64,000 bases of DNA from Tribonema minus (lineage: Eukaryota; Sar; Xanthophyceae; Tribonematales; Tribonemataceae): NCBI GenBank assembly GCA_017506865.1, contig JAFCMP010000083.1, forward strand, positions 1 to 64,000, written 5' to 3'. The position numbers were made by a program, and so were the translations under genes. Positions 10,258 to 64,000 of this stretch are shown here, piece after piece (the first letter of the stretch is position 1; each line of letters begins with the position of its first letter). The notes under the pieces are model-generated. The model had not been told where the DNA came from. It saw only the letters and a program-made list of their open reading frames with translations, and did no database searches.

Positions 10258-10960
10258 TACCGCCACCGTGAAGTCCGCCACGCGCCAGCGCAGCAGCCCA
10301 CACTTTACGACAACGCATTGATGCTGAGCTTGGACGGAGCGGCACAGATGCACCCCGGAAATCGTGCGTGTCGTGATGGCTCAACGTTCACAGGCTTGTT
10401 GGCGACACTCCTGACTCGCGAACAGAAGGCGCGGGGGCGAAGCGAAAACCACTCACCGCGAGCATGAAGTCTGCCACCCCGCCAGCTGCCTGTGTCATGG
10501 GTTGGACGCCGCTGAACTACTTGCGCATCCGTTATGATATCTCGCTCCTCGTTGAGAGGCCAAACACACAAAAACGAAACTTACCATACAAATGTCCGTA
10601 TTCACCGCGAGCATGGAGTCCGCGACGCGCCAGCGAGCAATCCACGCTCCGACTCCATGATGATCATCAATCAATGCATTGCAAGTCCATAGATTCACAA
10701 CGATTTCTGTGTGCTCTTGACCGCGCGTGCGCGTGACAGGGGCGACGCAAAGACCAACTCACCGCGAGCATGAAGTCCGCAACGCGCCAGCTGCCCGTGT
10801 CATGGGTTTCACGCCGCTGAAACTTGCGCAGGCATCCCGATATCTCGCTGCTCGTGGAAAGGCAAAAGAACACACACACAAACACAAACGACCGCACTCA
10901 CTGCGAGCATGAAGTCCGCGACGCGCCAGCGCAGCTCCTGGTTCGCCTCCTCGTACTCGC
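10258..10960 (-). repeat. Exon-edge array: copies of the TIM44 exon 5 end plus donor
   Basis: The exon-5 end and its donor at about 10902-10940 recur at about 10759, 10606, 10463 and, more degraded, 10258. Each copy keeps the W-R-V-A-D-F-coding segment, a G/GTGAGT- or GTAAGT-like donor and, in two or more copies, the same intron start (compare 10495-10580 with 10798-10890). All copies lie on the intron side of the real exon. Confidence 0.85.
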
Positions 10961-13900
10961 GCCGCATCGCAAAGATGTAGTGGCACGCCGCGATGCGGTC
11001 CTCGCTGCCCGCGACGACCTCCCCCTTACTGTTGCGCACGCAGTCAATCTGCTGCACCATGAAGAGGACGAGCAGGACCGGGTTCGCGGCGTGCTCGCCC
11101 TCAATCTTGTACGCGATCACGTCGGCGTTCCGGATGTCCAGCACGTGCGGGTCTGCAGCAAGATGCACGGGGAATGCGCAGCACTTTGTGTGTAGTTGTA
11201 TATGGTACGCTTTGAAGTATCATAACCAAGAGATTAATGCGTGCTCGCCCTCGATCTTGTACGCGATCACGTCCGCGTTCCGGATGTCCAGCACGTGTGG
11301 GTCTACAGAACACACACGGGGAATGCTCAGCGCTTTGCCTGTACAGTAGTTATACAGGAAACACTTTGAAGCAAACGTGTACTTCGGAGTATCAAAACAA
11401 TAAGATTATTGCGTGCTGGCCCTCACTCTTGTACGCAATCGCGTCTGCGTTCCCAATGTGCAGCACGTGCGGTCTGCTTTCAGATACACGGGGCAAATGC
11501 TCAGCGCATTGTGTGCACTGATGAAACACATCAAGTAGCAGTTGAAGATTCTGATACAGGCTGCAGGTACTGGCGGCATTGACGAAAGAGGTATCAAACA
11601 CTCGCATCCATACAAACATACCCATGATGCGGTCCGCCGTCTTTCGCGCCTCCATTTCCGCCAGCAGCTTGCTGAGCACCGCGCTGCTGAGCCACTGACA
11701 CATGTGTACCCAAGATGCGCGTGCGACCTCGAGGGGTAGGTATACTCACAACACCTTGCATCCATCCATACATACGTACCCATGATGCGGTCCGCCTTCT
11801 TGCGCGCCTCCACCTCCGCCAGCAGCTTGCTGAGCACCGCGCCGCTGAGCCACTGACACAATGTACACATGTTTTGCGTGGGACCTCGAGGCGTAGGTAT
11901 GCTCACAACCTCGCAGCATACATACATGAAAAACGAGGTCAAACGATCGAAGAGCTCTAGGTGACAAGGGATGGTTAGCCGCAAGTGCCTTCCACCAATA
12001 ACCGTGGTCGCCACATACATACGTACCCATGATGCGGTCCGCCTTCTTGCGCGCCTCCACCTCCGCGAGCAGCTTGCTGAGCACCGCGCCGCTGAGCCAC
12101 TGGCGCAGCGTGTCGGCGTCGCCGCGCAGCCACGCGCCCATGACCTCCGGCAGCAGGTGCTGCACGAGGTCCGCCTTCCACTCCTCCACGTCAAAGTACG
12201 GGTCCAGGCGCCGCAGCAGGCGCTGCGCCGCGCCCGCCTCTGTCTCCGCCGTCATGCTGCGCGGCGCGCGCGGGCGCAGCGCAACAATGGAATTTGTAAC
12301 ATCGCCTAGGTCGAGTAAAAGTACAAAAAAACTAGCAGTCAGCGCCTGCCTCGCTGCAGAGGCGAAGCAGGTGGCCGCTTGCGCTGGAATGCGCTGCGCC
12401 GCGCTCGCCTCCGTCTCCGCCGTCATGCTGCGCGGCGGCGCGCGTTCAAAGGACAAGCGTGAAATAACCTACTTGAAGTTGAAGTACAAAAACACTAAGG
12501 GCGAAGAAAAGGGGACGGGCACCGGAAGGCGGTCAGCCGCCTTCGTCTCAGCCGTACATTGCGCGGTGCGCGCATTAGAGGGCAATGTTCAAATAGAAAT
12601 CATTAACTTCAAGCTGAGATACAAGAACACTGGCAATCATTGCCTGCCTTGCTGGAAACGCGAATGGCAGGTGCGTGCACCAGAAGCCGCCGCGCCGCGT
12701 GTGCCGTCGCAGTCGCGGCAAGCGCGTGCCTGGGCCACGGCAGCCTGCGCACGGCCGCTGCGTGCAGCAACGGTACCGGCTCAGGCGGCCCCATTGCGGT
12801 CTCCACGCGACAACAGTGTCGGATGGCATATACCTCAGAGAGGGCGACCACAGCCCCATGCGCGATGTGCCAACTGGCGCATGACGCCACTTCATGTGCC
12901 TACATGCGCCGGCGCTGCAGCGGGTGCCTCAGCGCTCAACACCAGATATACCAGCAGCAGATGCCGGCTCCATCACAACCCCCTGTTGTGGCCCCCTCCA
13001 GGCTCACTGCTGGACCCCCCCCCCCCCCCCAGCAGTGAACCCCCCCCCCCCCCCCCCCCCCCCGCATGTACGATGGGATACCATGCAGCGATACCTCGTA
13101 CCTGTCCACCACGCTCGAGCAGGTACGGTATGTAGTACGTAACACCAAGCTATACCTATGTACCTGTCCCACACGCTCGACGCCTGGTACACGAGCGGGT
13201 GCTGGCTCGTCTCCCACGTCTCCTTGGCGTCCTCCACCCTGTCGCTGACCTTTTCTCGCGCGCGCCGCACCACCTTGTCCGCGCCCGTGGTCTTGCCCAC
13301 AGCCTCGGTGCCCGCCAGTATGTCCTGTTGGGGGGGGGGGGAGGGAAGGGGGCGCATGTGAGTCAGGTCTAGGAAGGGGGGGGGGCGCATGTGAGTCAGG
13401 TCTACAGTCGGGGTCATGTCAATGAGGGGGGGGGGGGGGGGCGCATGCGCGTCAGGTCTACATTCGGGGTCATGTTACTTGGGGGGGGGGGTGGTGGTTG
13501 CGAGTCAAGTCTACGGTCGGGGTCATGTCACTGAGGGGAAGGGGGCGGGGGGGGGGGGGGGGGGGTGCATGTGCGTCAAGTCTGCAGTCGGGGTGGCATC
13601 ACTCGCAGTGGCGCGGTGAGAGGCATTGCTGCCCCTGAGGGATGGATGTACAGTCGCGGCCTACGAAGCGCCAGTGAGTCGTGTGGCAGAATAAGCGCCG
13701 CAAGTCTCCGTGCCAGTCGCATGTCCTGAAACGGGTACTCGAGTGCGTGCGCAAGACAAGTCTGCTCTAAGGGGGGCCGCGGCGCAGTTCAATCAAGGGG
13801 GCCGCACTTTCAGAAGCCCTTGGTCTGACGCGCCCGCGCAGCGGTTCCATGCAGAGCTTTCGAAGCCCGTCACTGTGCGCGCATCTGATGCACAGTAGTG

Positions 13901-16388
13901 GACATCTGCAGACTGGCCCGACCGTCAGCGTATTATACGTGCTGCCGCGAGAGCGCAGCGCACGATGCGCGTGACTGCCATGTGAACAGAGTCACACTGG
14001 CCTGATGAGATGATTGGTGATGGCTCGGTGATACTGAAACGCCGAGCTGGTGCCTGTTGCGCGCAGATTACTTCAGCGAGGCGCAGGATCGCACCGTGCA
14101 GTGTGTGACACTGCGCGTCTGCATGTCGGCCAAGAAGAGGACTGCATTTTCTGGGCTGAACAGCGTGAAAGGGTGTACTGAGGTGAAGATGAAAATGCAT
14201 GAGCCGCATGGTAACGCTGGCCCGCCGTAAACGAGAGACGGCGACCATTGCATGTTGCAAGGAATGAGCCGCAATAAATCCGCCTGCGCACACGAATGAC
14301 TTGAACTTCAAATCATGACTTGTGCTCGACTGCCTCAAAAGGAATGCGACCCATTGCATATTCTCGGTCGCATGCCATGTTGAAGTTGCACAGACTGGCG
14401 CGCGCAAATTCCTGGGCAATATTGCACCTTGTGGCCCGCCTTAAACGAAAAGTCAATCACTGCACATTCCTCAGGATTGAGCGGCAATGAACCGCCGTCG
14501 CTACGCAGGATGCCAACTGCAACTTCAACATTAGCATGCATAACTGCTGCAAAGATGCTGTTGTTCCTATGAGAGCAACAAATGCGCAGTCCACATGGAT
14601 GCCAGCAGGCCTACTTTACAGTTGGCGGTGACTGATATCTCTAACCAGATAACTTGATGTGCTTCGCCGGTAGATGCACTACACACTGGATGTAACCGTG
14701 GGATGGATGTTGATTTGTGAACTGAACAAACATTGGACTGCAGGTGGCACAAAGTGGGCACGGGGTTGATCCTGTGCGCAGCATCGTCAAACTCATTGTT
14801 GGTGGGCATTCCCACCCAGCTCATGGCTGGGCTCACATCTGACGTATGAAGCTACCGTATACCCAGACTACAGCAATGGTATCCGTGTCAACGAAATGTC
14901 TGCAGCTGCAGAGCCTTTATTGAACAGATGAGCCCCCCGCTCACCTGGCCCAGACTCAACAATCACCTGCCCCAGACTCAACAGACCAGACCCCCCTCGC
15001 CTGGCCCCGACTCAACACACCAGACCCCCCTCACCTGGCCCGGACTCAACAGACGAGACCCCCTCACATGGCCCGCACTCAACACACCAGACCCCCCCCC
15101 TCACCCCCTCACCTGGATGAGCTGCGACTGCCGCAGCCGCGCCTGCAGCTTCTCCCACACCTCCGCGGCCGTCTTCACCAGCACCATCGCGCCCGACGCC
15201 TCCAGCGGCTCCACCTGCCCCGGCAGTACCTCCTTCACGTCGTCATTGGGGTTGCCCGCCGGCGCGTCGTCGCCCTCCTTCTTCTCCACCGGCCGCAGCT
15301 TCCGCACGATGGTGCTCTTCTCCTTGGGCTTCGCCCCTACGAGCTCGTACGCCGACTCCTTCAGCCCCGCCTGGAAGCGCGCCCACCACGTCTGCGGCTG
15401 CTCGGCGGCGCTTTCGTCGCCCCCCCCCCCCGCCGCCGCGCCCTCCGCTTCCGCGCCCCCCTGCTCTGCCCCCCCCCGCGTGAACTTTTTCTTGCTGGCC
15501 TTGACGAAACTGTTGGCGTCGTCGTCTGCGGCGCCGCTTGCGCGGGCCTGCTGCTCGACCTGCTGCTTGAGGCTCTCGCTCGCCTCCTCCACTCTGGCGG
15601 ATGCTCTGTCTACGACCTCGTGGATGGCTTTTGCAGCGGCCGCCAGGCGCGCATTCGCCGCCGCGGTGAACTGAGACGCGCGCCCGCGCGCCTTGCCAAA
15701 CCCGCTCTCCGCTTGACTAGAGGCTTGCTGGCCCTGCTCCCGCAGCTTGTCGACCTGCACAAGGGAGGAGGAAAACGACACCAGGTGTAAGTGATTTCAG
15801 CATGCGCTGATAAGGCCTGTATGACACAGAAGGAAAGTGTGCCAAAGCACGACTCGTTACTTTAAGAGTTGAAGATTTTGCGGAGGTGCCGGGGTGATGA
15901 ATGCCTTGCGCATCTGCCGCAAGCCACACGAGCACTGTAGGATGTGAACATCTTAACTCCACTCCACATTAGATGCACAAAGTCAGTCAACCGCCCGCAT
16001 CGGTGTGTAGTCGATCCGCTAGTGTTAATCCGCTCCAGTGCATCCCAGCCACGTTTAGATTCAATTTCGACGCACTGCACTGACAATGGTCACAGTTTGG
16101 CGGCTGTGCACCGTTTCTGCTCAAGTTGGACGCGAAAACTATAGGCACGTGCTGTGATGGACTTGCCTGTTCCTTGAATTGAGGGTTTTTGGACACCGCG
16201 TCGTTGAACTGAGATTTGAGGTCCTCAAATACGCCCTTCTCGGGCTCTTTCTTGCCGCCTCCATTGCTGGATAATAACCGACGCTGATGTATCAAGCAGA
16301 GTCGGCACGCCGTCGCAGCCGCGGGCACAGCCCTCCTTGTCAGGTCTGCATGTCGCAACCGCGCCACTGCCTGGGCGTGCCGGATCAT
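10902..16388 (-). CDS. TIM44: Mitochondrial import inner membrane translocase subunit Tim44 (C-terminal end not found)
   Basis: Tim44 tethers mtHsp70 to the TIM23 channel on the matrix side. Exons in transcript order: 16388-16167, 15754-15113, 13324-13164, 12256-12027 and 11152-10902; phases agree at every junction. Residues 1-41 are Arg/Ala-rich with no acidic residue except one Asp and end R-R-L-L-S-S, a mitochondrial presequence. Exon 2 encodes the charged, coiled, Ala-rich N-terminal half. Exon 3 ends near W-E-T-S-Q-H-P-L-V. Exons 4-5 carry the Tim44 C-terminal domain: R-R-L-D-P-Y-F, H-V-L-D-I-R-N-A-D-V, V-R-N-S-K-G-E-V-V, and W-R-V-A-D-F at the end. Intron 1 has a GC donor (AACAG|GCAAGT). 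The last exon, probably only a few codons, was not found: downstream lie only degraded copies of the exon-5 end. Reading through that donor would stop at 10809. The gene is head to head with the gene at 16594. Confidence 0.93.
11085..11480 (-). repeat. Exon-edge array: copies of the TIM44 exon 5 start plus acceptor
   Basis: The first 60 or so bases of exon 5, with the preceding CAG acceptor (about 11095-11160), recur at about 11235-11306 and 11410-11478. These copies lie upstream in the transcript, inside intron 4. Each keeps the V-L-D-I-R-N-A-D-coding segment, with decay rising with distance. Confidence 0.85.
11617..12110 (-). repeat. Exon-edge array: copies of the TIM44 exon 4 end plus donor
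   Basis: The end of exon 4 (real copy 12027-12110, donor ATGG|GTACGT) recurs at about 11775-11862 and 11617-11700. Each copy includes the A-D-R-I-M-coding end, the G|GTA donor region and a shared intron start with a TACATACGTAC-like run. Confidence 0.88.
12200..12580 (-). repeat. Exon-edge array: copies of the TIM44 exon 4 start plus acceptor
   Basis: The exon-4 start with its GCGCAG acceptor (12200-12262) recurs at about 12380-12440 and, weaker, at 12525-12575. The segments between copies also match one another: a TTGAAGTT-type word followed by a TACAAAAAC-like run. Confidence 0.75.
13327..13610. repeat. G-run minisatellite in TIM44 intron 2
   Basis: About five units, each a long G run followed by GCATGTGAGTCAGGTCTAC or a variant and then a GTCGGGGTCATG-like end. 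On the transcript strand this becomes repeated poly-C blocks just upstream of the exon-3 acceptor at 13325, so the pyrimidine tract itself is part of the repeat. Confidence 0.8.
14926..15112 (-). repeat. Donor-bearing minisatellite at the start of TIM44 intron 2
   Basis: Units of about 30-35 bases, read on + as CTCACCTGGCCC, then ACTCAACA, then CCAGACCCCC, are repeated about five times beside the exon-2 donor. On the transcript strand most units contain CCAGGTGAG, a copy of the true donor at 15113/15112. Confidence 0.8.
16167..16168 (-). promoter_or_regulatory. GC 5' splice site, TIM44 intron 1
   Basis: The donor reads GAACAG|GCAAGT on the minus strand. It follows codon 74 and joins in phase 0 to exon 2 at 15754, whose acceptor is CCCTTGTGCAG. 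GCAAGT is the best-known GC-donor consensus. Confidence 0.8.
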
Positions 16389-21305: not shown

Positions 21306-21336
<31 letters not shown>

Positions 21337-45494: not shown

Positions 45495-45525
<31 letters not shown>

Positions 45526-48500: not shown

Positions 48501-51500
48501 CTAGAGCTCTACGATCTTCTGATTCGTTTTCATTCATATACAGGGGTTAAGCTGAGCGCTGGTTACGAGCATCAATGGCCATGTGACGATGATCGCGTGC
48601 ATCCATGCCGAAAGCGCTCCGCCCAAGGTCACTTGGAATGATCGGCACTGATGATGACGGCGATGACGGCGCAGTGCAGAACCAACACAAAACCCAAGAA
48701 ATGCAATGGCTGCTGCGGATGCGGGTCAAGTTGGGCGCTGCGGCGCAGACTGTTGCTGGAGCACCCGTAGCACATCGAGGTCGCGGTGGTGCACTTGACG
48801 CTGCGGCGGTGTTCCAGAGTCTGCTTGAAGCCCTGAGAAAGTAACCTTTTTGAAGAGTTGCTGGCGAATTGACAAAGCTAACCCTAACCCTAACCCTGAC
48901 CCAGCCATTCACGCCCGGCGGCTAGCCTGTGCCCTGGACGGCGATGCTATCATGTACATCACACATACGTGCGAAGCACTTGTGCACTGAAGAACGTGGG
49001 ATGTACCATGCACCAAACGGAATCAGAACATACTTCTATACGACGGAACTGACCACCGTGGCAGAGTCGAACACCCAACATAGACCCCAATGCAGAAGTG
49101 CAGAACAAAACAAAACAGACTATTCAAGGATGAACGCTCACCTGAGGAGCTTCTCTGTGATGAACTCAACGTTCACGGGGTTGACCATGCTGTACAGCAG
49201 GTCCAGCGTGCGGCGCTTGAGGGTCTCGTCAGGGTCCTCCAGGCAGTCTATGACCGCCAGCTGATGCTCAGCGGCGTACTTGGGATGATCCTGTGAATGA
49301 TAGCAACATCAACATAGTGCAATTTGAGTCGTATTGCAGTTTGAGTCGTATTGCAGTTTGAGTCTATCACCGCCAGCTGGTGCTCCGCGGCGTACTTGGA
49401 ATGATCCTGCGCATCATAGCAAGATCACGTTTCATGTTGCAGGTTAAATTTATCACCGCCAGTGCGGTATCGCAGATTGCGTCTGTCACCGCCAGTGCGG
49501 ACGAAGCGGCATCATCCTACAGATGGAGTCCATCACCGCCAGCTGATGCTCAGCAGCGTACTTGGGATGGTCCTGCGCACGATAGCAAACTCATCATAGA
49601 GAAGTTTGAGTTGATAGCACAATCATTGTAGTGCAGTCTGAGTCGATCACCGCCAGCTGGTGCTCCGCGGCGCAACGATGGCAAAATGATCGTATTGCAG
49701 TTTGTAGGTACACGCGCTGTCCAGGGCTGGCGCGACATACGTAGTGTACGCCAGTGCGCTTCCTCCTTCGGTCTGCTACTGCCGGGTACAATGCTGCGCC
49801 ACAAGCGGCATCACTGCTCGAGGGAGAATGAGATCTGCACGAAAATCCGATGCGTCATAGAGAGCTGGTGCTTACTAGACTGTTGTTGTACGCCGTCAGA
49901 GGTAGCCATCAAGTTGACAAATACAACAGTGAACTGATGCCAGTCGCGTGCTGCTAGAAGTTGATCATTCGTAGTCTGTCAATCCCGACGAGTGTAACTG
50001 CCGTGACCAGCAAGCGCGCACGCCGCATGAGCATGTAACCGCCAATGCGCCAACAAGAGCCACACCCACAAAACAACAAGAAACAAGAACAAAAAACACC
50101 AAGACACACCTTGACAATGGCGGCGAGGCCCGTGACGCCGACGTACTTGAGGTTGTGGTTGTCGCTGGACAGGAAGCGGCTGATGCTCGCTGCCGCCAGG
50201 TCCAGCAGCGACGGCTCGGGGTAGATGGTCGTGACGGTACGCACGCACTCGTACACAATCTGCGGCGCCGTCGCGCATTATGACGATCGGTGGCAGCGTG
50301 AGCAGCAGCAGCGGCGGTGCGCGCGCGCATAGGGAACACGCCTCGAAATGTTCATGTACTCAAAGACTGTAATAAGAATGGTGTTATATATACAAGTGCA
50401 CGATCTGCGGTGCCGGCGCGCGTTGCAGCGGTTGGTGGCAGCGTCAGCAGCAGCAGCAGCAGAGGCAGAGGCAGTGCGCGCATGACGTTTTCGTGTGCTG
50501 GCACTTTGCGGCCGGCGGCGTGAGCAGCAGCAGCAGCGTTAGTGCGCGCGCACGCGGACCACGCCTTTAAATGTGTACTTCGAAGCTTGTACTTTTGCAA
50601 AGACTAAAATGGAATGGTATCATATAAACGTGCATTGCAACGTGACGGCGGTCGGCGGCGTAAGCAGCAGCAGCGGCGGTGCACGCGTGGGACGTGCGTT
50701 TAGTGTGTTGGCACTCTGCGGGGAGCGCGCCGCGTGTGCCATAGGCACATGTATAGTTCTATTCTTCAAGCGAACGATGCGGCAGCGAGGTTCTGGTGCA
50801 ATAGCAACTTCAGCACACTCGAGTTTACTGGCGGCTACTGATACGATACTGAAGAAGAAAGAGGAATGACCAGCGCGTTTGCACTGCACCAGTCTGAGTT
50901 GCATGCGGCCAGTTGATGCCAGGCCTGTTGACGCCATTTGACGCAATGCGCTGATTGCAAACGCGTCGGTGCAAACGCGCCGTCCAATCGCCTTGCACCT
51001 GATTGTACAGACGCACTTGTTCCATGGTCAACGCGCGACTTGTAGCCTTCCGTCGCCAATGGATCGCACGCTCCTTCGAGAGCGCGCAGTTGGTGAGAGG
51101 TGCAATACGCGACGTCATATGCGGCTCGGCTGCAGCAGGCGCTACGCAAAAAGGCAAGAAACACAGCTGTAGGTGCAAAAGTCAAGTAGTCAAAGTAGTC
51201 GTGCGCGCGTTTGACGTGCAGCACCGCTCAACCAGGTCCTTAGGCGATGCCCATCTTGCAGCGCGCAGCAGACAAGTCGCTGCGCGCACTGTGGACGGCA
51301 GCAATCTGAGCACTACCACAAAGCGCAGAGACTCACCGCATAGCCGACGTTGATGCCGGTGTCGGCGCGCCGCTTCAGCACTGCGTGCACACCCGCCGCT
51401 TGACACTAAACAACAGGCGTTCCAGACACGCAGTGCCACGTGGAAACCGCGTACGCCTACTGACGACGGCGGGAGGCTGAGGCGCTGCCACAACGAGCAG

Positions 51501-54500
51501 AGACTCACCGCGTAGCCCACGTTGATGCCCGTGTCGGCGCGCCGCATCACATCGCGCAGCACCTCGTAGATGCCCTCGCTGGCGGCGCGGTCCGCCCTGC
51601 CGAGTATGGCGAGCACCTGCGGAGCGCGCGCGAGCAGTGCACAGCAGGGGTTTCATGAGCAGCGTAGTGCACGGCAGGGGGCTTCATGAATAGCATGACG
51701 CCTTATGCGGTGGTCAGTGCTTTGAGAGCTTCACCCAGCCATACATGAATGCAGCGTTATCGAGCCGCGCTGGCGGCGCGGTCCGCCCTGCCGGGTATGG
51801 CGAGCGCCTGCAGAGCATCAAGATGCGCAGCAGCTTAGGGTTAGGGTTTAGGGTTAGCGTTTCAGCGGCACAGCCTGGTAGTGCACACCGGCGCCAAACA
51901 ATGGTGGTGTACGGTTTGTGATGAGTGCACACCGGGCGCCAACAACGGTGGTACCGTTTGTGATTGCAACCTCACAGACTAGATTTCAAAAAAAAATGTA
52001 GGCGCCACGTGATAATGAATCAGAATTACAATTTTGTTGAGCCATTTCTGTGCAGCAGTTCAAAGAGGCCTCAGTGCAAATACGGCTGCCACAAAAAGTA
52101 TTGATAGGACATGGACAGTACCCCATAGCAACAATCAACTGAATAGCAAGTGGCAATCTTATCACACCGCCATCCTAGATCTGGTTGATGCGTAACTGCA
52201 CACTTGTGCTTTAGGGCAGCACGGACATCTTAGCTTCATGCTCCTGACATGCTGCTGTCATGTCATCTGATGATTACAAAGTTCCCCGCAAGGGAAGACC
52301 TCCACATTGAATAGTTCAACTTGAAGTAATAAATGTTGGAGTCCAGTTTTCTGCTTACAAGGATTGATGATGGACGGTGGCTGTCCACATCCGCGTCCGC
52401 ACAGCGCTACAAAGCACAGCTTGCTCTGTTCCGCAAAAGCTGGCACGTGTCGCTGAACATCCACACAAATATTTCGAGAGGCACGGGAGAATGCTCAGAA
52501 ATGCGGACGCCGTACATGCATGCGTGCACAACCCTTCATGTCACTGACACACAATACAGCAGAGCCACCTGACTGTCAGGGGCCAGAGAAAGAAAACCCG
52601 GCCCGTGTTGCGACTCGCATTCAAATTTCACTCACAGATCGACTTAAGTGCGTAATGACACACAGGGGCGGACCAGCCTCGCAAACACCACGCGCCCCTC
52701 GCCTGCAGCAGGCGCATCTGTATGTATGCATGCACATGCAAGTAGGGCATGTAGGTATCATACTCCGTCACTGACAAACATCACGCGCCGCTCACCTGCA
52801 GCAGGCGCATCTGGATCCAGGGCGCGGGCATGCGGTGGTAGTCGTACTCCCTGCGGCAGCGCACGCGCATCGCAAAAGCAAACCGGTGCTAAATACTTTT
52901 AGCTTTTTACTACACTGAGGGGAAGGCAGCAGATTGGCACACAAAAATCATGCAAAAACATATGTGGCAATGATGCACTGTCGTTGCGCTGGTATGGGGG
53001 GGAAGGGGCCGAAGCCGCTGACAGTGGTGGCGTTTCTACTGCCGCACGGTGATGGAGGGGGTGACGTGCCGCGTCCGCACTCCGCAGCGGCGTCTGCCGC
53101 GTGTCGTACGCAGGCGCATTCAAATGGCGTACCAGCAGGACCGCCAGAGTGCAGCAGCGGTGCCAACACACGTGCTCGACGAGCGCACACATGACTGGTG
53201 GCCGTGCATACTTGAAAGTGTTGTCGGCTCGCTGAACTTAGGGTTAGGGTTAGGCTGGGGGAGGCCTCGCTCTCATCACAGAGGGCGCGTGCAGTGACCA
53301 GCGATAAAATGAATCCGCCTTGGCCAGTGCTTTCGCAGGTGAACTTGCAACTTAGTACAGAGTGGATGATGTAGGCTACTGTCAGCAGACTGTGCTGCTG
53401 CAAGGTTTGATAACAAGCATATTGTACATGCACGGTTGAAACAGCCAGACTCTAAATGCATGGTGGTGCATCAGCCCCCGAACCAGCGTAGCCCCCTGTC
53501 AGTACCCCGCCAGAGCAGCTTCACAGCATGTCAAGCGGCAGCGCTCCGCAGCACGCATGCATTGCCTGCGTCTGATGCTCAAAATTGTCATGCAGATAAG
53601 ACAGAAGCTGGGGACCAGCACCCTCTACGCAAGGCCGCGACTATGTATCAAGTGCATGTGCACTCCCGCACTGGCGCTCAAGTAACCTAACCCTAACCCT
53701 AACCCTAACCCTAACCCTAAGTTCGCAATGCATACATACCTCGGCAGGCGGTGCTCCGTTATCTGCTTGAGGATGGAGACGAAGCTCGGGACGAGGTCCT
53801 TGTACGCGGGCGGGTCCGCGCGCACGAGGTCGTGCAGCAGGCACAGCGCCGCCCCCATCACGCTGCAGCAAACGGAGAGTCGAGTCAATTCACCGGAGAG
53901 TGAGCGATGACCCGGGGGGGCAGCGGCACGCGCGCGATTGTCGCGCTGGTGTCGAACTGATAGAGTCAAATCGGATCACTATTGATGGAGTTGAAATCAC
54001 CGGAGCGTGAGCGATGACACATGAGGCACACGAGCAGCTGCTGCGCTGCTGTCGGTGTCGGCGGCAGCGACGGCTGGACGCGTGTTTACAGACAAGGGCT
54101 GACGGAGGCAGGCGGCAAAGACGGATGCAGCGGAGGGTGGCGGCGGTTGGCAGCCGGGCGCATTGCTCAGCAATGGATGGAGGCGCGGGGGGGGGGGGGG
54201 GGGGGGGGAGGGGGGGGGCAGAGCGCGTGCGTACGCGCAAGGCAATCTGGCCGCCGCCTTCGATGATTGATGACCGTGAGGCTGGGATACACAGATCATC
54301 GGCATGTTCGACAGAAAGGGTATGCCTGAATTCTCCCTGCAGGTGAGGGTTCACAGGGGGCTTGCAGCACTTTGACAGCTGCGCCATGTGGTTCTGTGCA
54401 GCAATCCTTTCGGCGTGAGGTAGATCCTGATCTGAGGCAACTATGCTCAGGGTTAGGGTTAGGTTTAGATTAACATTACACTGCGGCCTGAAATGAGCGC

Positions 54501-57500
54501 GTCGTCACTGTGTCCAGCGAACATGCATGTGCGCCTAAGAGCGACATCACGAGACGCGTGAGCGGTGCACTGTTTGCTGCGCACGGTGAACGGAGGGTCA
54601 TCCTGCTGGCGGTTGCGCTGAACAATCAGCAGCAACAAGTTGAAGTTCAAAGCGCCGCCGCAGCCGAGACAATCTGGCGAATGGCTCGCCAATTCACGCC
54701 GATCCAGCTACCCATTTTGATGTAGTACCTTACATCAGCGGCAACGGCGCACAGGTATCAGCTAGTACTGTACAAAAGTGCCTGATCCAAATCCTAATTT
54801 TCGAAGTGCAGAAGCGCTGTTGCGGCGGCAGACAAACGCGCAGCGCCTGCGCCGCTGCCGGAGCATCAGGCGCGGCGCTGCACGCAACGCATGCGGCACG
54901 CCACCGCAGAGCAGCACGCACCAGCCTTTGCACAAGTAACATTTTGGGGTACTTCGATTACAACAAACTAAAGTTATAGTCATAGTAAATATTGAAGTAG
55001 TTTGAAGTATGAGGTTGCATGGTCACAGGCAGGTGCTTGGGGGTCAGCAGACTGCCGAGCTCGGGCGTCACCTGAGGCCCCTGACGCAGAGCATCCTGCG
55101 CCACCGCAGAGCAGCACGCACCAGCCTCTGCCACAAGCGACTCTTTATAAATAGTCACATCAGAAGCAAGAGAAATTTAAGTTCTTAGTCATGAGCTCGG
55201 GCGTCACCTGGGGTCCTTGTCGCAGAGCAGTCTGCGCACCGCGTCGCCGAGGTGCGCGATGCTGCCAGGCTCCAGCTGGTGCAGCCGCTGCAGCACCATC
55301 ACCGCCTGCAGTGGTAGTGGCAGACAGTTTTGCAGCGCGTCAACCTTGTCTGTCGCTGCCTCAATGCAGACAGCACCATCGCCGCTGCCTGCGCCTCATG
55401 ATTGATGTGGGTCAGTATCACATGTCAGTGCTTCTTCGGCGGCAAGTGCCGTCTCATGTTCATGACGTGCTCATAGCAGCTGCATGGCAGAGCATGGGAT
55501 CCCGCCCCAAAATCGCACTCTCTGCTCACTAAGGTGATAACTTCACACGGGGTCCATGCGCAGCCACGGTTGGAAATGGGGCTGCACTGACTCTCCCAAC
55601 AATACCATGTTGGAGCTGGAAGGCGGCAGAAGGCATTTGACCATGGAAGTGTGTAAACTTCCACCTTCATGTAAAAAGTCAAGTTGCACCATGAAAACTG
55701 GTCAAGGCAGTGTGAGCGGTTGCATTTTTTCTACTTTGGCGCGCAACCTTGTCTCATGACTGACTGGTCACGCTGCGAGTCGGCATCCGCGCACCAAGCA
55801 GGGTACAGTGCGATCCTCTGCGTCGAGCCGCTGTTGCTGCGCTAAGCTCTTTGTCATGGAGCACCAGCTTCAGTTTCTTCTTAACTGCTGCTCAGGCAAC
55901 CTTAACGGCGAGCTCTGTCGCACCACCAATTTCCAGCACAGAGGACATTCCGCCCAGGACTGCAGGGTTGGTATGTATGACAATTCTGGTCATTATACAT
56001 GCCTCACCTTCTTCCGCACGAGTTCCTTGTCGTGGCGTAGCAGCTTGACGACCTCCCCGATGACGGCCGGTATCATGTCCGCCGTCAGCAGCTTGGTCAG
56101 CGCGCACAGCGCTGCGCACGCCTCCAGGTGATTTGAGCTGTGCAATAAGGGGGGGTTGATGCGCGCATTGAGCATTGGCTCGAAGCCCGTGTAAGAACCA
56201 CAACAATCGCGGTGCATGTATGCAGTGTGGATTCGGCAGCTTGGTCAGCGCGCGCAGCGCCGCGCACGCCTCCAGGTGGTTCGAGCTGCGCAGTGAGGGG
56301 GGTGCGGACACGTTTTGAGCATTGGCTCGGAGCGAGAGTGAAACCCACAACAACATAGCGACGCGACCGCGCTGCCATCAGACACAACACTAATTAGCTC
56401 TTACATGAAGCTGGTGTTAACACGCGTCTAAAGGGACAAGCGCTGCACGCCAATGGGCCGGCAGTGGGCAGACACGAACCCCAGCATCGGAGGGGTTTGC
56501 GATTGCACACAATAATGATCTTGAAGTTGAAGTTGAAGTTGCAGGGGCAACTGCGGCGCACCTCGCGAGGTCCCTCTGCAGCTGGTTGACGAGCATGAAG
56601 CGGAACTCGTGCTCCGGGCTGAGGCACAGCGCGCTGCACAGGTACCCCGTCTTCTTCTGCGCGAGGTTCTGGCTCGCCGTGAGCTCAATCGCCTTGATGT
56701 AGCCGAAGCTCGCGTCGTGGCCGAGCATCTCCACGTACACGAGCCGCACCAGGAACTCCTTCATCTGCGACCAGCAGCAGCACAGGGGCGCTGGTGTTAG
56801 GAGCCGTGGGTCTCTGCGCGGCTTTGGAAATTGCTTCATATGATGCGGCCATCGGCACAGGCGCTCGTCCGTTGTATCGTCGTCGCGCAGGCATAGATGT
56901 AGGTCTTTTTTTGAACAGCAGCAGCTCCTTCAGGGGGGCGCCTGCGAGGTTCCATTTTTCTGTGTGCAGCTGTAAGAAGTCCTGCACGAGCCTCACCGTC
57001 AGACCCGTCGTTGGGTGTGGTGGTCAGGGGGTGGTTGTTTATGCAGTGCGCAGCTTGAAGGCGATGTCTTGGCACACACGATGTGGCCATATACATGACT
57101 GCTGCCATGGTGCCGTTCATCTGTAGGTGCTAGCCAATATGAATTCTACTTGGTGCCGTATATTATAGGCAAACTGCCGCCTGCTGCTGCGGCGGCGTGT
57201 AGTCACAGCACAGTTGGCATGTAACTGTGAATCATGGAGTTGGAGTTACGGCACAGCGTCTGCACAGTGTGAGCCACGGCTGAATGTATTTCAGGCACAG
57301 GAAGCGGTGGCCGACATTCCATCTGAATGTATGTGCAGTGCTGCACATGAAAGTAGACGTACAACCGACATCGCCTGTAGTGCTGATAACGGTGTTTTTG
57401 ATTACACCTCTAAACCATTTGTTGTGAAAAAGTTTCTTATGCAGTGAGCCTGTGGACATGCGTAGGCCGCGCCAGCAGTGGTCCATGCAGATAAGCGCGC

Positions 57501-58375: not shown

Positions 58376-61300
58376 ATGCAAGCCTCTGCTGCACCCGGAG
58401 GCTATGCAGGAGCAGCACCAGGTTTCGGAGCTGGAGGAGCTTACGCAAGCAGTGCTGGCAGAGTCCTTGCTGCCAAGGGCGGTGGCATTGATTCCGCCTC
58501 CATTGAGCTGCCTGAGAAGGTCAGGCAGGCCATCGAGGAGAAGTGCGAGCGGGTTCGGAGCTACATGGTGCCTGACAAGCCCATGAGAGGTGAGACACTG
58601 GCGTCACTTGCCCAACTTAGCAGGCAGCATCCGCTTGCCACTAAGTTAATACTCCGGAAGCGGTCCCCTCACGCAAGGAGCCCATCCATGAAGGTCTTCG
58701 GAGTCACGCATGCTTCGTTGCGATGCGCCCTTGCGCAACTGCGACAGTCATAGATTTTTCTGTAAGCAAGCGGGGTGATGCCAACAGGAACCTGCAGCAA
58801 GTTGGCGTATTCTGCAGCCGTCAGTCTAGGCTGCCATTGACTATGATGTTCGGAATAACTGTACTGAAGCGCTCGCAACGTGGGATTGAAACAACGCGGT
58901 GGCGCTTCTGCTGTGACATGAGTCACATGACATGAAAGCCCGACCCGATAGGCATTTTCTTCAGTTGCATTGATTTCTCAAATGGTGAATTATGCCTGTC
59001 TGTATATCACTTGATCCATGAGATGCCATCACCCCTACCGTACACATCCCAGATTCAGTCACCCCTTCAGAGCTGCGCCTTGATACCCTCAGCCCCGGCG
59101 CTGCTATCCACCACTCCCTCTGCATCATTACACAGTACACCGGCTAAGCATTCGCTCGCCACAACTTGCTGCCGCTGCGAGACGCTCATCACACCTGCAC
59201 GCTCTATGGTGCGTGCCGCGCCGCTCTAGAAATCGACATGCACGCGATGAGGGTCCTGGAGGTGGACGCGAGCATACAGGCGGGGACGGCGTACGCGACC
59301 GCGGCGGAGGAGTTCACCTTCGTGCTGCCGGAGGTCGCGGTGCCCATACACACATGTAGCGTGTGCGGCAACAAGGACCAGCAGGTGCGACCCGCCTCGG
59401 CGCCTAGAGAGCCTCTGGTTGCAGATGCGACGGCGGTTGTGGTTGTTTACACTTGTTGAAGTTCTTTGCGCTTGCTGAGCACGATGGCGTTGAGCGGCCT
59501 GCAAGAGCGCGCCTTCAGGCCCGCAGTCTTTTGCCCTCCTCCATGACCCGGACTGATACGGGGTGCGACGGTCGACCCGTACGCAGTACGCGGTCGTGTT
59601 GCGTGGTCGTTGTTAGCAAGCCAAGCTGCGTTGTTCCGTTTGTGTCAAACGAGGTATCGCTCGTATGCAGAGCGCGTGTACCACAAGCTGAGTGCAGGAG
59701 TCTGTCGTCTTTCAGCTTTCTGACGGCATGGTGTGCGCGGTGTATCTGCGTCGGCAATCACGGGCGTCCACCGCACGAGAGACATCGCTGTGACAGTGAC
59801 TAACTGTGTTTGCCCTGTAGACAACGGACCTCGCAATGATCGCAAGCGGTGAGAGCAGTCCCATCATATGGAAGGGCACTCGTAGCGCCACGATCTGCCT
59901 AGGCGCCCGTACGTGCAGACGCGGCCGCGCGGTTGGGCGCTCTTGCAGGGGACCACAACCAGATGCCTAGACCGCGTGTCGACGTTCATCTGTGCCTCAC
60001 AACTGCGCTCTGCAGTTTTATCGCTGGGGGTTTGTTGAGGGCGTACAGTAAGTACCGAAATTATGCGAGGCCCCCGCTGTCACAGCGCAGCGGCGGCCAT
60101 GGCTGAAAGAGCCGACAGGCGCGCTGCCGCCTCCAGCCCCGAGCCCGCTGCAGCATGTCTTCTCACTCTGGTCTACCCTAGAGTCAGGGTTTTGGCTAGG
60201 AGTGGGGTCAAGGTTAGAGGCAGGGCTAGGCTTGCCCGCCGTTTGTGCACTGCACACCAATCCGCTCCTTGAACCGAACGGAGCGTCACCCTGCGCAATC
60301 TTCATGTTCACCCCCCCCCCCCCCCCGCAGTTCTTTGTGCTGGACGCCAAGCAAGGGGACACCATCTGCATGGGCGTGGGCGGCGCCGGCTGCGGAGCTG
60401 TTGTGGAGGACCACAAGGTGCGCCTCGTATGCCACCGCTGACTGCTGCACTGCTGCGGCATGGGTCAGGTTTAGGGTAAGGATTACGGTTAAAATCAGGG
60501 GTAGCGTTACGATGCGAGGTCAGGATTATGGAATCATTCTCCCCCTTGAGCGCGCTGCGGCGCTGCTGGTGTGTGGCGGCTGCAGCGTCGTTGTCGAGGA
60601 CCAAAATGGCGCATTATGTGCCGCCGCTGACTGCTGAAGGGCGAGGCGAGGATTGGGGTAAAAGGGGGGGTCAGGACATTGCTTGCGGTTAGGGTCAGGG
60701 TTTAGAGTTAGGTCGACCTTACCGTACCTTTACTCCCCCCCCCCCCGCCCATTGCGGCACCGCTGCCGTGTGAGAGATGCCGCCAACGTCTCGCAATGAA
60801 CGCTTCAGAACAGTCCATAAGAGCTGCAGTCATAAGACGATGCCTTGTAGCTGCTGCCGCGGACTACAAGACGTGTCTGCCCGCACGTGGCAGCTGAGGC
60901 GCTGCGGCGCTGAACGCGCGATGCAGCGCAGCTGCGCGAGCGATGCCACAGGGGCCTTGCGTCGACTGCTGTAGGCAGCCTATTGCCCAGCAGATGAGGG
61001 CCCAGTGATGCCCAGCCGCTGTGGAGGACCGGATTGCGCGCCTGCGCCTGCATGCTGGCAGCTGAGACGTGCTGCACCGGGGGCCGCTGGCCAATGTCGT
61101 CCCTGGATAAAATTCCCGTCAACTTTTGCAGGGCCATGCGGCAGTCCCTTACGATAAGGTTGTCAGTGCGCAGTTGCATGTCAGTGAACCCCCCCCCCCC
61201 CCCCCCTGTAGCTGCGAGGTGCTTCCGACAGCCGTGCTGAACTGCGTGATGACCGCGTGATTGGGTACGTAGGTATGTACAGGGCGCCCCGCGCATCTGA

Positions 61301-63451
61301 GCGCTGAGTACACATACGGCATGTACTGCTGTCACGACTACATATGCGGATTTGTCGCCAACTCCACTTCAACTCCGCTTCGGCCGCAGCGGACTTGATG
61401 TTCGAGTCGTTTGGGTCTTTTCACTCAGCGGAGTCGGAGTCGTACAGTGATTGATGCCAGCTCCGCAGAGCAGAGTCGTGAGTCGTGAGCGCACCAGTCA
61501 CAGCCTCTGGAGCGGAGTCGGAGTCATTCAGATATTGTGGAGTCGTGACAAGCTCTGCAAAAGTTGCGCCGTGCTGACTGTTGCTCGAATTAAAGTTTCG
61601 CATGCGTGTTTTTTGCCTTTCGCTAAGCGCACGAGGGCCGCAGCAACTTTCACTCTTGAAGCGCAACCTTCAAGTGCAGGTCAAGTGTCGTGGGAAATGA
61701 CATGCCATTTCCCACCTTCTTCGCGTCGTTTTCTCTTGTAGTGTGTCCGCGCCCGCGTGCGCCCCTGTTTTCCACCCTCCTCACATCATCGTTCTTTGTG
61801 TGCGTGCCCACATGCGCGTGTGCCCTTGTTTGCCAGGCGCACGAGGGCAACATGTACCGGCAGTTTGAGGGCGAGGTCGACCGCAGCCACCACGGCCTGC
61901 CGCCGGACAAGCTCTACTCCACGGCGTACAACATGCGCACGCAGATCAGCAAGGGCGCGCTGGTGAGCAGCGCCTGAGCGATGCCTCGGCTGCTGAGCAC
62001 TGGTGGGCATCGCCCTCGCTGTTGATCGTTGCTCGCAATGACATGACGACAAGCGTTCTCGTGCATGCGACAGCCATGCGCACGCAGATCAGCAAGGGCG
62101 CTCTGGTGAGCGCCTGAGGGATGCCGCGGTTGCTGAGCATCCGCCTCCAATGACGGGCAGCGCCCCCGTTGACGAGCATCACCCACAACGCTATTACGCT
62201 TTTCGCGCCCTCATCTTTGTTCACGCAGTAGGCTGTGTGTACTACAAAGAGAAGTATGAAGGTTACACCGACCGCATTGTTGTCATGGCGGTCATCGCCC
62301 GCCACGCTGGCGGCGAACGCGTGGCGCCATCTGTGCGCCACAGCATGGTGCTGCGCACCGCTCGTGTGGCTGCTGCTCCCATAGTACTCTTTCTCCCAGC
62401 CCTGACTCCCCTTCGCGCGCCCCTTCTCTGCGATGCTCCCACAATGCTGATTCGCGGAGCACCTGACCCCTGTTTGCGCTCCGGTCGCCTTGGAAGTTAT
62501 GATGCTTCAGTAGTGCTGATTTGCTCAACCCCCGACTCCTCGTTACGCCCCGCCTGCTCTAGGGTTTTGATGATCCCATGGTGTTGATTTGCCAAGCATG
62601 TGAGCCCCCTTTGCCCCCCCTCCTTCCCTAGGACTCGGCACGGTTGGCAAACCTCAGCAGCTACGTCGAGATGAACCTGAGCCAGATGGGGAAGGACGAC
62701 AAGCGCACCAGGGTGGGCTACAAGGACCAGGTGCGTCGCCCGGCGAAGTTGAAGATGCGTGTCCCCTTCAGGTGATCTTTAACAAGGGTTCCATCATTCA
62801 TCAGCATCCAGCAGTAGACCTGGATCGCGATCGGCCTGCCTCCCTCTTTGACTCCGCCGCTTGGTGTGAAGTTGAAGATGTGCACACACCTTTTCAGGTT
62901 AATCTTCACAATTTCCATAAGTTATCGCCATCAAGTCAGTAGAAGCGGCCTGCATTCGCTTGAGCGCTGTAGCTGGGTGTGTTCTGCAACTGTGCCCCAC
63001 TCCCTGTTTTGGCCAGCTCATTTTGCCAGGTGTTGTCTGCACAGCACATCAATGTCAACTGAATTGCGCGGGCATGCACTGCTCACAGCCCCCCCCCCTC
63101 CCTTCCCTTCCTCATGGTGGGAGGTACGCTGCCGCCCCGAGCTGCGCATCCGCTGATTGTCAGACAGTTACTTTACCCGCAAAACGTCTTTGTGTGTTCC
63201 TCCCATTGCTGTCCCCACCCATCCACCCCGCCCCCCCCCCCCCCCCCTCCCCTCCCCCACCCGCCCCCCTCGCGCGTCGCGCAGATGAAGAAGCAGGCGT
63301 TCGACGTCATCGACCACATGGCGGCCAACTGCGACCTGCACGGCACCGTGACGGAGCGCGCCAAGGAGCTCTTCGCGGGCTGGCGCAACGTCAAGGAGCA
63401 CGTCCACCACAAGAACGCCGTCATCTGCGCGTGCATCGTGGCGGCGTACAG
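58376..63451 (+). CDS. TFIIB-like transcription factor (3' end beyond the window)
   Basis: Six exons seen: 58376-58589, 59230-59384, 60331-60417, 61837-61962, 62632-62730 and 63285-63451; all phases match, giving 282 residues so far. Exon 1 is Gly/Ala-rich, then helical (E-L-P-E-K-V-R-Q-A-I-E-E-K). A zinc-ribbon-like unit spans exons 2-3: C-S-V-C-G-N, F-F-V-L-D-A-K-Q-G-D-T-I-C, then G-C-G-A-V-V-E-D-H. This is TFIIB-like, but the second pair of Cys is spaced C-x7-C instead of C-x2-C. Exon 4 has E-G-N-M-Y-R-Q-F-E-G-E-V-D-R-S-H-H-G, a segment of TFIIB relatives in algae and protists as I recall it. Exon 6 begins the first cyclin fold: A-K-E-L-F-A-G-W, then N-A-V-I-C-A-C-I-V-A-A-Y-R. It probably acts in nuclear transcription initiation; whether it serves Pol II or Pol III is unknown. 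The start at 58376 is provisional. Confidence 0.8.
60311..60326 (+). repeat. Poly-C pyrimidine tract immediately before an acceptor
   Basis: A run of about 16 C, then GCAG, directly before exon 3 of the TFIIB-like gene at 60331. Similar C runs precede or lie near acceptors at 13325 (as G on +), 26172, 28641, 29540 and 63284. Confidence 0.85.
60380..60650 (+). repeat. Exon-edge pair: copy of the TFIIB-like exon 3 end plus intron start
   Basis: The exon-3 end and intron start (about 60377-60450) have a decayed copy at about 60565-60640: GGCGGCTGCAGCGTCGTTGT, then CGAGGACCAAAATG, then GCCGCCGCTGACTGCTG. The intron piece GCCACCGCTGACTGCTGCAC is shared. Telomere-like GGTTTAGGGTAAGG words lie between. 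Confidence 0.75.
61930..62145 (+). repeat. Exon-edge pair: copy of the TFIIB-like exon 4 end plus donor
   Basis: ATGCGCACGCAGATCAGCAA followed by GGGCGCTCTGGTGAGC at about 62073-62107 copies the exon-4 end (61932-61966); the following GCCTGAGGGATGCCGCGG matches the intron start. Confidence 0.93.
62735..62900 (+). repeat. Intronic two-copy repeat in the TFIIB-like gene, intron 5
   Basis: GAAGTTGAAGATG, then a CCTTTTCAGGT-like block, then ATCTTHACAA-like sequence and CATCA occur at about 62737-62810 and 62868-62940. It is the TTGAAGTT word in a longer unit. Confidence 0.65.
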
Positions 63452-63975
63452 GTGAGCCGCGGCAGCGGCGGCAGTGGCACATTCTTCAAGTTTACTTTTG
63501 GAGCACTGCCACCAAACCAAATGAAGTAGTGAACAACAGCGCACGTTGAGGCTTGCGTGTGGAGCACGTCCACCACAAGAACGCCGTCATCTGCCCGTGC
63601 ATCGTGGCGGCATACAGGTGGGCCGCGGCAGCAGCGGAAGCGGCAGCGGCAGCGGCGGCGCAGCGCTCATCTGTTGGCAACAGTGCCACTGCTGCTTTTC
63701 TGCTGTGAAGCGGGGGGTACGTATCACATGTAGCCCTACCTTACATACCACGGCAGGGACGCCGTCATCTGCGCGTGCATCGTGGCGGCGTACAGGTGAG
63801 CCGGGCAGCGGCGGCAGCGGCAGCGGCGGCGCTCAGTCTTGAAGTTCGCTATAGGAGCACACTAACACAACTGGTGAGCAGCAGCGCGCTCAGCCCACAA
63901 GGTTTGTGTCTGGGGCCTTGCCACGGCAGAAAACGCCGTCGTCTGCGCATGCATCGTGGCGGCGTATTAGGCGAG
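63400..63975 (+). repeat. Exon-edge array: copies of the TFIIB-like exon 6 end plus donor
   Basis: The exon-6 end (63400-63460; N-A-V-I-C-A-C-I-V-A-A-Y-coding, donor TACAG|GTGAGCCG) recurs at about 63566-63628, 63757-63805 and 63930-63977. In the last copy the donor region has decayed to TATTAGGCGAGCCG. The array runs toward the window edge. Confidence 0.93.
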
Positions 63976-64000
63976 CCGCGCGGCAGCAGCAGTGCTCAGT

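Follow-up and report, generated by a model that had tools for sequence, protein, structure and literature searches.

Why should the edges of exons be copied, again and again, into the introns beside them? The question is raised by a 64-kb stretch of Tribonema minus DNA (the window, by which we mean the whole of the 64,000 nucleotides analyzed), in which genes with long introns carry repeated blocks that straddle their splice junctions. How introns come to lengthen, and why long introns are a feature of certain lineages, are open questions that such arrays address, and in the sampled parts of the genome roughly 1 in 5 long-intron junctions carry stacked self-copies, as if exon edges were recurrent sites of duplication.

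We analyzed 314 kb, consisting of the window and 250 kb from four contigs, in which HMM ab initio gene models gave 436 junctions. Predicted exons of <25 bp and genes with <300 coding bp were left out before counting; introns shorter than 200, 560, 680 or 760 bp were left out depending on the test and, in some tests, exons of <60 bp. Forty-six of the 347 predicted exons were taken out as being copies themselves, which indicates that annotation pipelines may mistake such copies for exons. Matches that did not cross a junction (14) were excluded from the count of spanning copies. PsaD was matched only by a plastid-type fragment, and on that ground a green-alga identity was dropped.

Junction-spanning copies in the window

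Self-comparison of the plus strand of the window gave 46 direct off-diagonal matches, every one no more than 1,030 bp apart, which group into 22 clusters that begin inside the window. Two copies lie beyond these clusters, one at junction 60417 and one in a block at about 12391-12497. The original prediction of about twenty affected junctions was therefore correct, and direct reading together with self-comparison bore out its claim that the TIM44, TNPO3, adaptin and TFIIB-like genes contain junction-spanning copies and that, over the set, donors as well as acceptors are affected. The Pfam match of the adaptin gene is Adaptin_N, its putative AP4E1 name being taken from that earlier reading, as is the putative name of the TFIIB-like gene, whose match to the Pfam TFIIB zinc ribbon falls below the cut-off.

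In TIM44 (minus strand), the donor array at 10243..10931 belongs to the real donor 10902/10901 and has two copies, located at about 10745-10791 and 10588-10635, besides a similar block at 10243-10290. One intron of this gene carries arrays at both ends, an acceptor array at 11089..11515 (real acceptor 11152; copies 11239-11337 and 11411-11515) and a donor array at 11605..12102 (real donor 12022; copies 11767-11855, which is 99% identical, and 11609-11697). Inside the first unit of the latter array, at about 11926-12012, is a SINE-like element. An acceptor-side copy at 12220..12497 pairs block 12391-12497 with 12220-12334 (score of 92 against a shuffle maximum of 33); the gene finder absorbed block 12391-12497 into exon 12023-12468, and the real exon start is putative. 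Also on the minus strand, a weak cluster of 56-bp units with no clear exon part lies at 13376..13594, just within acceptor 13324, and 34-bp units at 14923..15097, several of them with CAGGTGA, adjoin donor 15112. TNPO3 (plus strand) has two donor arrays. The array at 26377..27482 (real donor 26489/26490) has six more copies up to 27482, with GT intact in five, and the array at 27902..28392 (real donor 27986/27987) has three more, with GT at 28095, 28207 and 28324.

The adaptin gene (minus strand) has acceptor arrays at 41885..42283 (acceptor 41912), 49235..49672 (acceptor 49290) and, with a short overlap, 50251..50687 (acceptor 50259), and acceptor copies at 43384..43594 (weak; acceptor 43391), 46939..47220 (acceptor 46999) and 56085..56353 (acceptor 56137). 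On the donor side, an array occupies 54882..55242 (donor 55207) and copies are found at 43904..44146 (donor 44100; 46 exon and 20 intron bases), 51288..51549 (donor 51508) and 52682..52816 (donor 52795; 21 exon and 21 intron bases). The same gene contains five similar blocks at 44492..45592, where the donor of exon 45529-45698 is presumed to be the real edge, and another five at 46020..46909, spaced by 158-201 bp and not tied to one real exon. A 52-bp pair (92%) at 51574..51816 has its edge near 51807, at a break in the gene model. The TFIIB-like gene (plus strand) shows donor copies at 60387..60636 (donor 60417) and 61932..62139 (donor 61962) and a donor array at 63395..64000 (donor 63451), which runs past the window to about position 64276 of the contig.

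Extent and structure of the copies in the larger sample

Junction-spanning copies are real and are found beyond the window too. In the 314-kb sample, 81 copies with the exon-intron boundary inside the repeat unit were counted; they affect 31 donors and 21 acceptors, 52 of 378 junctions in all, and each is placed at an intron end, over the junction of that same intron. The gap from the real junction to the first copy is 60-505 bp, with a median of 153 bp, and the stretches that run from a junction to its last copy account for ∼11% of the modelled intron sequence. That the duplication is local and at the DNA level, as had been predicted, is supported by 160 direct against 5 inverted self-matches within 600 bp in the 314 kb, by no matches for 378 reverse-complemented junction windows, and by no matches of 250 junction windows to the introns of other genes in this sample, where dispersed, near-identical introns of the introner type were likewise not found.

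The exon parts of the copies are 72-100% identical to the real exon, most being several percent diverged. Past the splice site, similarity of the intron part persists in 54 of the 77 testable copies, sometimes out of register or shorter, and clean tandem arrays exist, such as one with 209 aligned bp at a period of 210. In the other 23 no intron remainder is recognizable (4 further copies were too short), and some copies may therefore be short insertions instead of tandem duplications. As a general origin we rejected short-copy insertion, given the similar remainder in 3 of 7 inspected examples and in the 54/77 overall.

Distribution of copies relative to gene structure

Under a single rule for a local direct copy, 45 of 197 junctions were positive in the 314 kb, compared to 16 of 993 positions in intron interiors that did not resemble the junctions of their own intron. 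In a smaller interior set, 82 of 640 positions resembled such junctions and were set aside; retaining them gives a generous interior count of 40/640, and the contrast is then less than 4-fold. Outside the window the figures were 31/153 junctions and 15/857 interior positions (P = 1.7e-16). The position profile reached 43/219 between -40 and +40, with 0/82 at -200 in the exon and ∼4% deep in the intron. Since a conserved exon part could ease recognition, visibility was checked with intron-only windows, which also detected 22 of 34 arrays. These comparisons show a several-fold enrichment of junctions over intron interiors, ∼9-fold after visibility correction. Array placement is thus tied to gene structure, unlike that of location-independent tandems of the minisatellite type, and junctions are favored in either birth or persistence.

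The original prediction had held tolerance responsible, with duplications over a junction surviving and those inside exons purged. The latter part is supported, with 15 pairs lying within exons against 24.5 expected in a shift test. As the full cause, tolerance would give like rates in intron interiors, and equal rates were seen neither in the 314 kb nor in its part outside the window; with interiors so far below junctions, tolerance alone fails to predict the junction bias. Pure neutral tolerance combined with better visibility, in which duplications arise everywhere, are purged in exons and are recognized more easily where the exon copy is conserved, does fit the apparent neutrality of the copies and the deficit within exons, but the enrichment left after the visibility correction and the contrast outside the window make us disfavor it as improbable.

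The same rule applied to coding ends gave raw counts of 2/32 for stop edges and 2/25 for start edges. Both start-edge matches were judged to be model breaks, located within arrays of the adaptin and TFIIB-like genes, and a doubtful gene was judged to contain one of the two stop-edge matches. The contrast between junctions and stop edges has a P value of 0.033, few coding-end edges standing behind the splice-specific claim.

The shift test, in which match pairs needed 10 bp on both sides of the junction and 300 shifts were made, is cruder than the same-rule test. It gave 84 junction pairs where 44.8 were expected (maximum of 68 in 300 shifts), and for pairs of at least 88% identity it gave 9 where 4.1 were expected (maximum of 11), which is within the null range. 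When shorter overlaps were counted, 21 of 36 pairs with at least 88% identity and no more than 1,500 bp apart included a called junction.

Several correlates of the bias were searched. Arrays had no link to weak real splice sites (P = 0.95 for donors and 0.79 for acceptors) or, in the 314-kb sample, to exon length, and clustering by gene was not detected (dispersion P = 0.15). Fragility of homopolymers (G/C runs) was rejected as a cause, arrays showing no association with them. In first introns, 6 of 62 junctions had copies, compared to 46 of 316 other junctions.

Polarity and fate of the copies

In 13 of 20 multicopy arrays, resemblance to the exon is highest in the copy that lies nearest to it; 2 arrays show the opposite and 5 are tied (P = 0.007). 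For 42 copy pairs, distances to the real exon at codon positions 1 and 2 total 196, while copy-to-copy differences come to 170; changes common to the copies number 9 at these positions and 38 over all positions. With this polarity and so few common changes, arrays seem to be replenished repeatedly from the real exon edge. Among 39 pairs from the same array, 15 have exon breakpoints no more than 3 bp apart, compared to 8.8% between arrays, showing re-use of the breakpoint within arrays. For minisatellite-type expansion, in which copies would be related to each other, the common breakpoints speak one way and the few common changes and the polarity from the exon the other. Gene conversion by the real exon could be another source of the polarity and star-like descent. 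Polarity would also allow duplications to be ordered from a single genome.

The copies look nonfunctional. Between copies, change at codon positions 1, 2 and 3 is.165,.138 and.187 (P = 0.08 for the excess at position 3), and from real exon to copy it is.093,.091 and.161. Distances of copies modulo 3 are distributed as 29/31/21 with no frame bias, and 22 of 81 copies have a stop or an indel. Tandem exons would retain coding constraint and frame; the near-equal codon positions, the even distances and the stops and indels do not fit this. Inner copies are thus shown, as far as their substitutions can tell, to drift as noncoding DNA does, in keeping with the near-neutrality that had been proposed for them. 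Where homology allowed a check, it supports the outer, exon-attached copy as the one that codes: TNPO3 with its copies omitted is colinear with transportin-3, and the match to an AMP-binding domain covers 8-384 of 384 once a copy peptide was omitted.

The splice sites of the copies are largely intact in appearance, with 47 of 52 donors and 25 of 29 acceptors scoring at least 0, and this genome is therefore a natural test of spliceosome site choice. The suggestion that the decoy sites have a use found weak support in their splice dinucleotides, which are mismatched in 6 of 125 where 9.4% would be expected (P = 0.045), and none in coding constraint, frame bias or weak real sites. Selection for functional decoys, for instance in splicing tuning or in U1 snRNP binding along long introns, would explain both the strong sites and the dinucleotide deficit. 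We nevertheless regard it as quite unlikely, given exon parts without clear coding constraint, distances without frame bias, no relation to weak real sites, and donors and acceptors alike affected.

Possible origin of the arrays

We favor, with a probability of roughly 55%, the reading that the arrays arise as short pieces of genomic DNA are duplicated recurrently, locally and in direct orientation, each duplication starting about 10-100 bp inside the exon and reaching into the intron. Splicing would stay with the outermost site, and with that site still in use the insertion would be tolerated and the intron lengthened. A first tandem duplication would seed the array and later rounds would be guided by homology between the real edge and an existing copy, so that the array would grow at its exon end, with older copies being pushed inward and decaying. 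Junctions might be targeted because a factor tied to transcription or splicing makes staggered breaks there, this being the least certain step and one that we put forward tentatively. Candidates are polymerase pausing, R-loops, or paired nicks that are filled in and joined. If the junction bias is mutational, splicing or transcription would be linked to DNA breakage at exon edges. It is possible, though we would not yet lean on it, that junctions are a directed duplication hotspot of this lineage, transcription- or splicing-coupled copying of the exon-intron edge into the intron leaving a polar, datable record, newest by the exon, as introns grow from their ends.

An unlikely but serious alternative is that births are even and that arrays with a conserved exon edge are maintained by gene conversion or unequal exchange, while interior arrays drift beyond recognition. 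Such persistence would produce the polarity, the common exon breakpoints and the few changes common to copies, and also the situation at 12022, where a 99%-identical exon part lies beside a far less similar intron remainder; the weak shift test for young pairs (9 against 4.1) is what it would predict. Stop-codon edges, on the other hand, are equally anchored and gave only 2/32, intron sequence by itself is enough to reveal 22 of 34 junction arrays, with interiors at 16/993, and a called junction lies inside 21 of the 36 most similar pairs.

Recurrent duplication also has to be weighed against mobile elements, whether the repeats are long target-site duplications of inserted or excised elements or the products of introners. 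The end of a terminal-inverted-repeat element (43995-44059) does lie between adaptin repeats, in the stretch 43972-44078, and 1 of 7 other places with that end is flanked by 48-bp direct repeats in a genome-wide search that covered three stretches. As a general cause mobile elements were rejected, two element families being found near arrays and most arrays being unexplained by them. Similarity carries on into the intron remainder in most testable copies, the SINE at 11926-12012 entered an already existing unit, and the 250 junction windows have no match in the sampled introns of other genes, all of which makes this origin very improbable. Least probable of all, and barely credible, is an artifact of assembly or gene models. 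The models are ab initio, and in addition to the 46 copies predicted as exons one more copy, in TIM44, was left in as an exon and one TNPO3 donor was placed 14 bp off. Most copies, however, are several percent diverged, unlike duplicated reads, and homology backs the exons of TNPO3, TIM44 and an AMP-binding enzyme.

Comparison with known systems

Mutually exclusive tandem exons are whole exons used alternately, unlike the copies in Tribonema minus, which are partial, decaying exon edges. The likeness, in the passages compared, is that tandem exon duplication with mutually exclusive splicing also places tandem coding copies within one gene (PMC9013439). Junction arrays are not described among the matches listed in open-licence PubMed Central text, and the expectation that no system of this kind has been described thus held among those papers.

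A structural resemblance is to human segmental-duplication paralogs, where internal tandem repeats at exon-intron boundaries are reported and 27 intron modifications were found in recent paralogs (PMC2812944). In the passages compared, these too are tandem units across the boundary with consequences for splicing, and those passages do not mention an excess over intron interiors, growth polarity or decoys at many junctions, which are present here. Small tandem duplications can result from breaks with protruding ends, as by nicks on opposite strands (PMC8355091); the passages compared concern induced 43- to 50-bp overhangs in animal cells, where our units are usually larger, and do not refer to splice junctions.

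The birth of introns by duplication of an exonic AGGT, as covered in the parts compared of a review (PMC3443670) and of a report on Drosophila cases (PMC2891723), is likewise a short DNA tandem duplication that carries splice sites and is hidden by splicing. There a new intron is born, whereas in Tribonema minus an existing junction is duplicated and an existing intron grows. In potato RdRp, the passages compared describe how an acceptor and the start of an exon were duplicated in tandem, and also an 83-bp duplication within an intron (PMC4974935). That case concerns one gene, in which an intron newly arose and exon sequence was inserted, whereas the duplications in Tribonema minus are recurrent and affect many junctions.

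Sample and gene models

Beside the window, we sampled C83:64001-104000 on the same contig and C4:200001-280000, C257:200001-280000, and C550:300001-350000 on three other contigs, which together with the window came to 314 kb. The full assembly comprises 554 contigs and 158.18 Mb, of which the sample covers 0.2%. Genes were modelled ab initio with a small hidden Markov gene finder trained on the sample sequence itself, and 46 of 347 predicted exons were discarded as copies of a longer neighbor. After filtering, the 314 kb held 41 confident genes with 259 exons, 218 introns, and 436 junctions.

Where checked, the predicted models are supported by sequence homology. Without its array copies and two doubtful exons, TNPO3 aligned to transportin-3 (structure 4c0p) over residues 11 to 858 (E = 1.8e-84). 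The alignment is ungapped at the junction of the first array (donor 26489/26490) and has a one-residue gap at that of the second (27986/27987). In TIM44, the match to the Tim44 domain (positions 5-144 of 147) spans the donor and acceptor arrays, and on C257 a match to the AMP-binding domain (positions 8-384 of 384) spans an array when the copy peptide is omitted. The gene finder erred at the first TNPO3 array, calling the donor at 26475 where sequence and homology place it at 26489, and in TIM44, where the acceptor-side copy at 12391-12497 was called as an exon.

Enrichment of copies at junctions

Under a uniform scoring rule, with 80-bp windows and a copy sought within the next 400 bp for every position class alike, 45/197 junctions had a local copy. 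Random intron-interior positions had one in 40/640 cases, or 7/558 without positions resembling the intron's own junctions, and a regular pass over interiors with junction-like positions excluded gave 16/993, in 10 clusters. Outside the 64-kb window, the figures were 31/153 for junctions versus 15/857 for interiors (odds ratio, 14; P = 1.7e-16), and inside it they were 14/44 versus 1/136. Start-codon edges scored in 2/25 cases and stop-codon edges in 2/32. One of the two stop-edge matches stems from a 331-bp tandem pair, 97% identical, in a short and doubtful C257 gene (sample 15496-16160; contig about 215496).

An earlier rule gave 59/378 junctions, 35/873 intron-interior tiles (all tiles), and 11/586 intergenic tiles. 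By that rule, a copy was found for 1/200 windows lying 65 to 165 bp into the exon, none of 378 reverse complements of junction windows matched, and none of 250 junction windows matched introns of other genes in the sample. The copy rate was maximal at the splice site and zero in windows beginning at least 160 bp inside the exon. A cruder shift test counted 84 hit pairs that overlapped a junction by at least 10 bp in both directions versus 44.8 expected; restricted to pairs of at least 88% identity, it gave 9 versus 4.1 expected, within the null maximum of 11. With shorter overlaps allowed, 21 of 36 pairs of at least 88% identity and at most 1,500 bp apart included a called junction.

A copy facing a conserved exon stays recognizable longer than two drifting intron copies, and such visibility explains only part of the bias. 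Intron-only windows recovered 22/34 junction arrays, and 5/151 junctions were seen solely from intron-only windows. Even distribution would then predict copies in ∼15% of interiors (22/151), whereas 1.6% was observed, about nine-fold less, a shortfall that shrinks to about two-fold with the most generous interior count (40/640). Stop-codon edges share the visibility advantage, yet their rate was below that of junctions (P = 0.033; small sample).

Structure and growth of the arrays

Self-matches at most 600 bp apart in the 314 kb were direct in 160 cases and inverted in 5, and direct matches at most 1.5 kb apart formed 82 clusters, some away from junctions. On C550, two predicted genes (sample 14408-15446 and 28080-28984; contig about 314408 and 328080) have ∼81-bp exon repeats, as expected of proteins with 27-residue repeats.

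Introns of at least 200 bp held 81 junction-spanning copies at 52/378 junctions (31 donors and 21 acceptors). Next to exons of 150 bp or longer, copies carried 10 to 100 bp of exon sequence (median, 46; maximum of 100 exon bases examined), and the first copy lay 60 to 505 bp from the real junction (median, 153). The remainder of the unit was similar in 54/77 testable copies, beating 100 shuffles, with register and full length not always kept; 23/77 had no similarity there, and 4 further copies were too short for the test. The stretches reaching from a junction to its last copy account for ∼11% of the intron sequence in the gene models.

By codon position (1, 2, and 3), the real exon (the outermost, exon-attached copy) and its copies differed by 9.3, 9.1, and 16.1%, and copies differed from one another by 16.5, 13.8, and 18.7% (position 3 excess, P = 0.08). 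This pattern is expected when the exon is conserved and its copies drift freely. Junction-copy distances modulo 3 were distributed 29/31/21, and 22/81 copies contained a stop or indel. Splice dinucleotides were slightly better kept (6 mismatches in 125 versus 9.4% expected; P = 0.045), and copy splice sites scored at least zero in 47/52 donors and 25/29 acceptors, with no sign among these scored copies of purging of decoy sites.

Among 20 arrays offering at least two copies for comparison, the exon-proximal copy was more like the real exon in 13, less in 2, and equally so in 5 (P = 0.007). For 42 copy pairs, those within an array being non-independent, differences from the real exon at codon positions 1 and 2 summed to 196 and those between copies to 170, with 9 shared changes; at all positions, 38 changes were common to copies, as expected with silent-site change in the real exon itself. 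The few shared changes and the polarity suggest that copies derive mostly from the real edge and less from each other. Exon breakpoints agreed within 3 bp in 15/39 within-array pairs, compared to 8.8% between arrays. In the simplest reading, an array would be seeded by one duplication, after which homology would guide further duplications at the real edge while older copies moved inward. The same picture could come from gene conversion by the real exon, and one genome cannot tell the two apart.

Mobile elements near the arrays

The first TIM44 unit contains a SINE-like element of ∼90 to 130 bp (11926-12012), which recurs at C83:93690-93825; 39 other genomic matches were found among 40 scored, from 1,937 first-look candidates genome-wide. 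The TIM44 insertion has an apparent ATGTATG flanking repeat. In the adaptin gene, the end of a terminal-inverted-repeat element (43995-44059) sits in the stretch between the repeats (43972-44078). This end has seven other genomic matches, one of them also between direct repeats; the element measures ∼555 bp, and its terminal inverted repeats ∼80 to 115 bp (loci L035, L036, and L038), and ∼64-bp ends also occur solitarily elsewhere. The match between direct repeats, at locus L039 (447-661), has repeats of 48 bp and resembles the adaptin-gene array at 43904-44146. These elements help account for the loss of tandem appearance in some units, not for the arrays as a class.

Possible origin of the bias

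Donors were affected more than acceptors (37/189 versus 22/189; P = 0.047), and among the sampled junctions the bias had no correlate in splice-site strength, exon length, homopolymer runs, or particular genes. Its presence at both intron ends and its fading in interiors would point to a process that is coupled to splicing or transcription and produces staggered breaks. In animal cells, breaks with protruding ends are an established source of small tandem duplications (PMC8355091); in this genome, we infer the link of the break process to splicing. The main rival is exon-anchored persistence of the copies.

The individual event resembles an ordinary tandem duplication, and tandem duplication over exon-intron boundaries is known from single genes and human paralogs (PMC4974935, PMC3443670, PMC2891723, and PMC2812944). 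Among the matches listed from the open-license literature, we did not find polar, junction-centered arrays affecting one in five long-intron junctions; what would be new is their placement, scale, and polarity.

Other observations

A plastid-type psaD fragment with in-frame stops, the sole PsaD match in the assembly, lies on contig C99 (C99:197190-197384; L040 1501-1695) with local direct repeats on either side. It suggests that psaD is plastid-encoded and that the plastid is of the red lineage. Taken with the ASAFVLP stretch and the TTAGGG-type words described below, it is a lead toward an alga of the red-plastid lineage, perhaps a stramenopile. The predicted protein at C83:95871-102435 (minus strand), which had no Pfam match at 0.001, carries an ASAFVLP stretch, a plastid-targeting motif of algae with red-lineage plastids. 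Interstitial TTAGGG-type repeats occur at 53686-53720 of the window and in sampled non-coding DNA, where the word TAACCCTA was found 94 times versus 1.8 expected.
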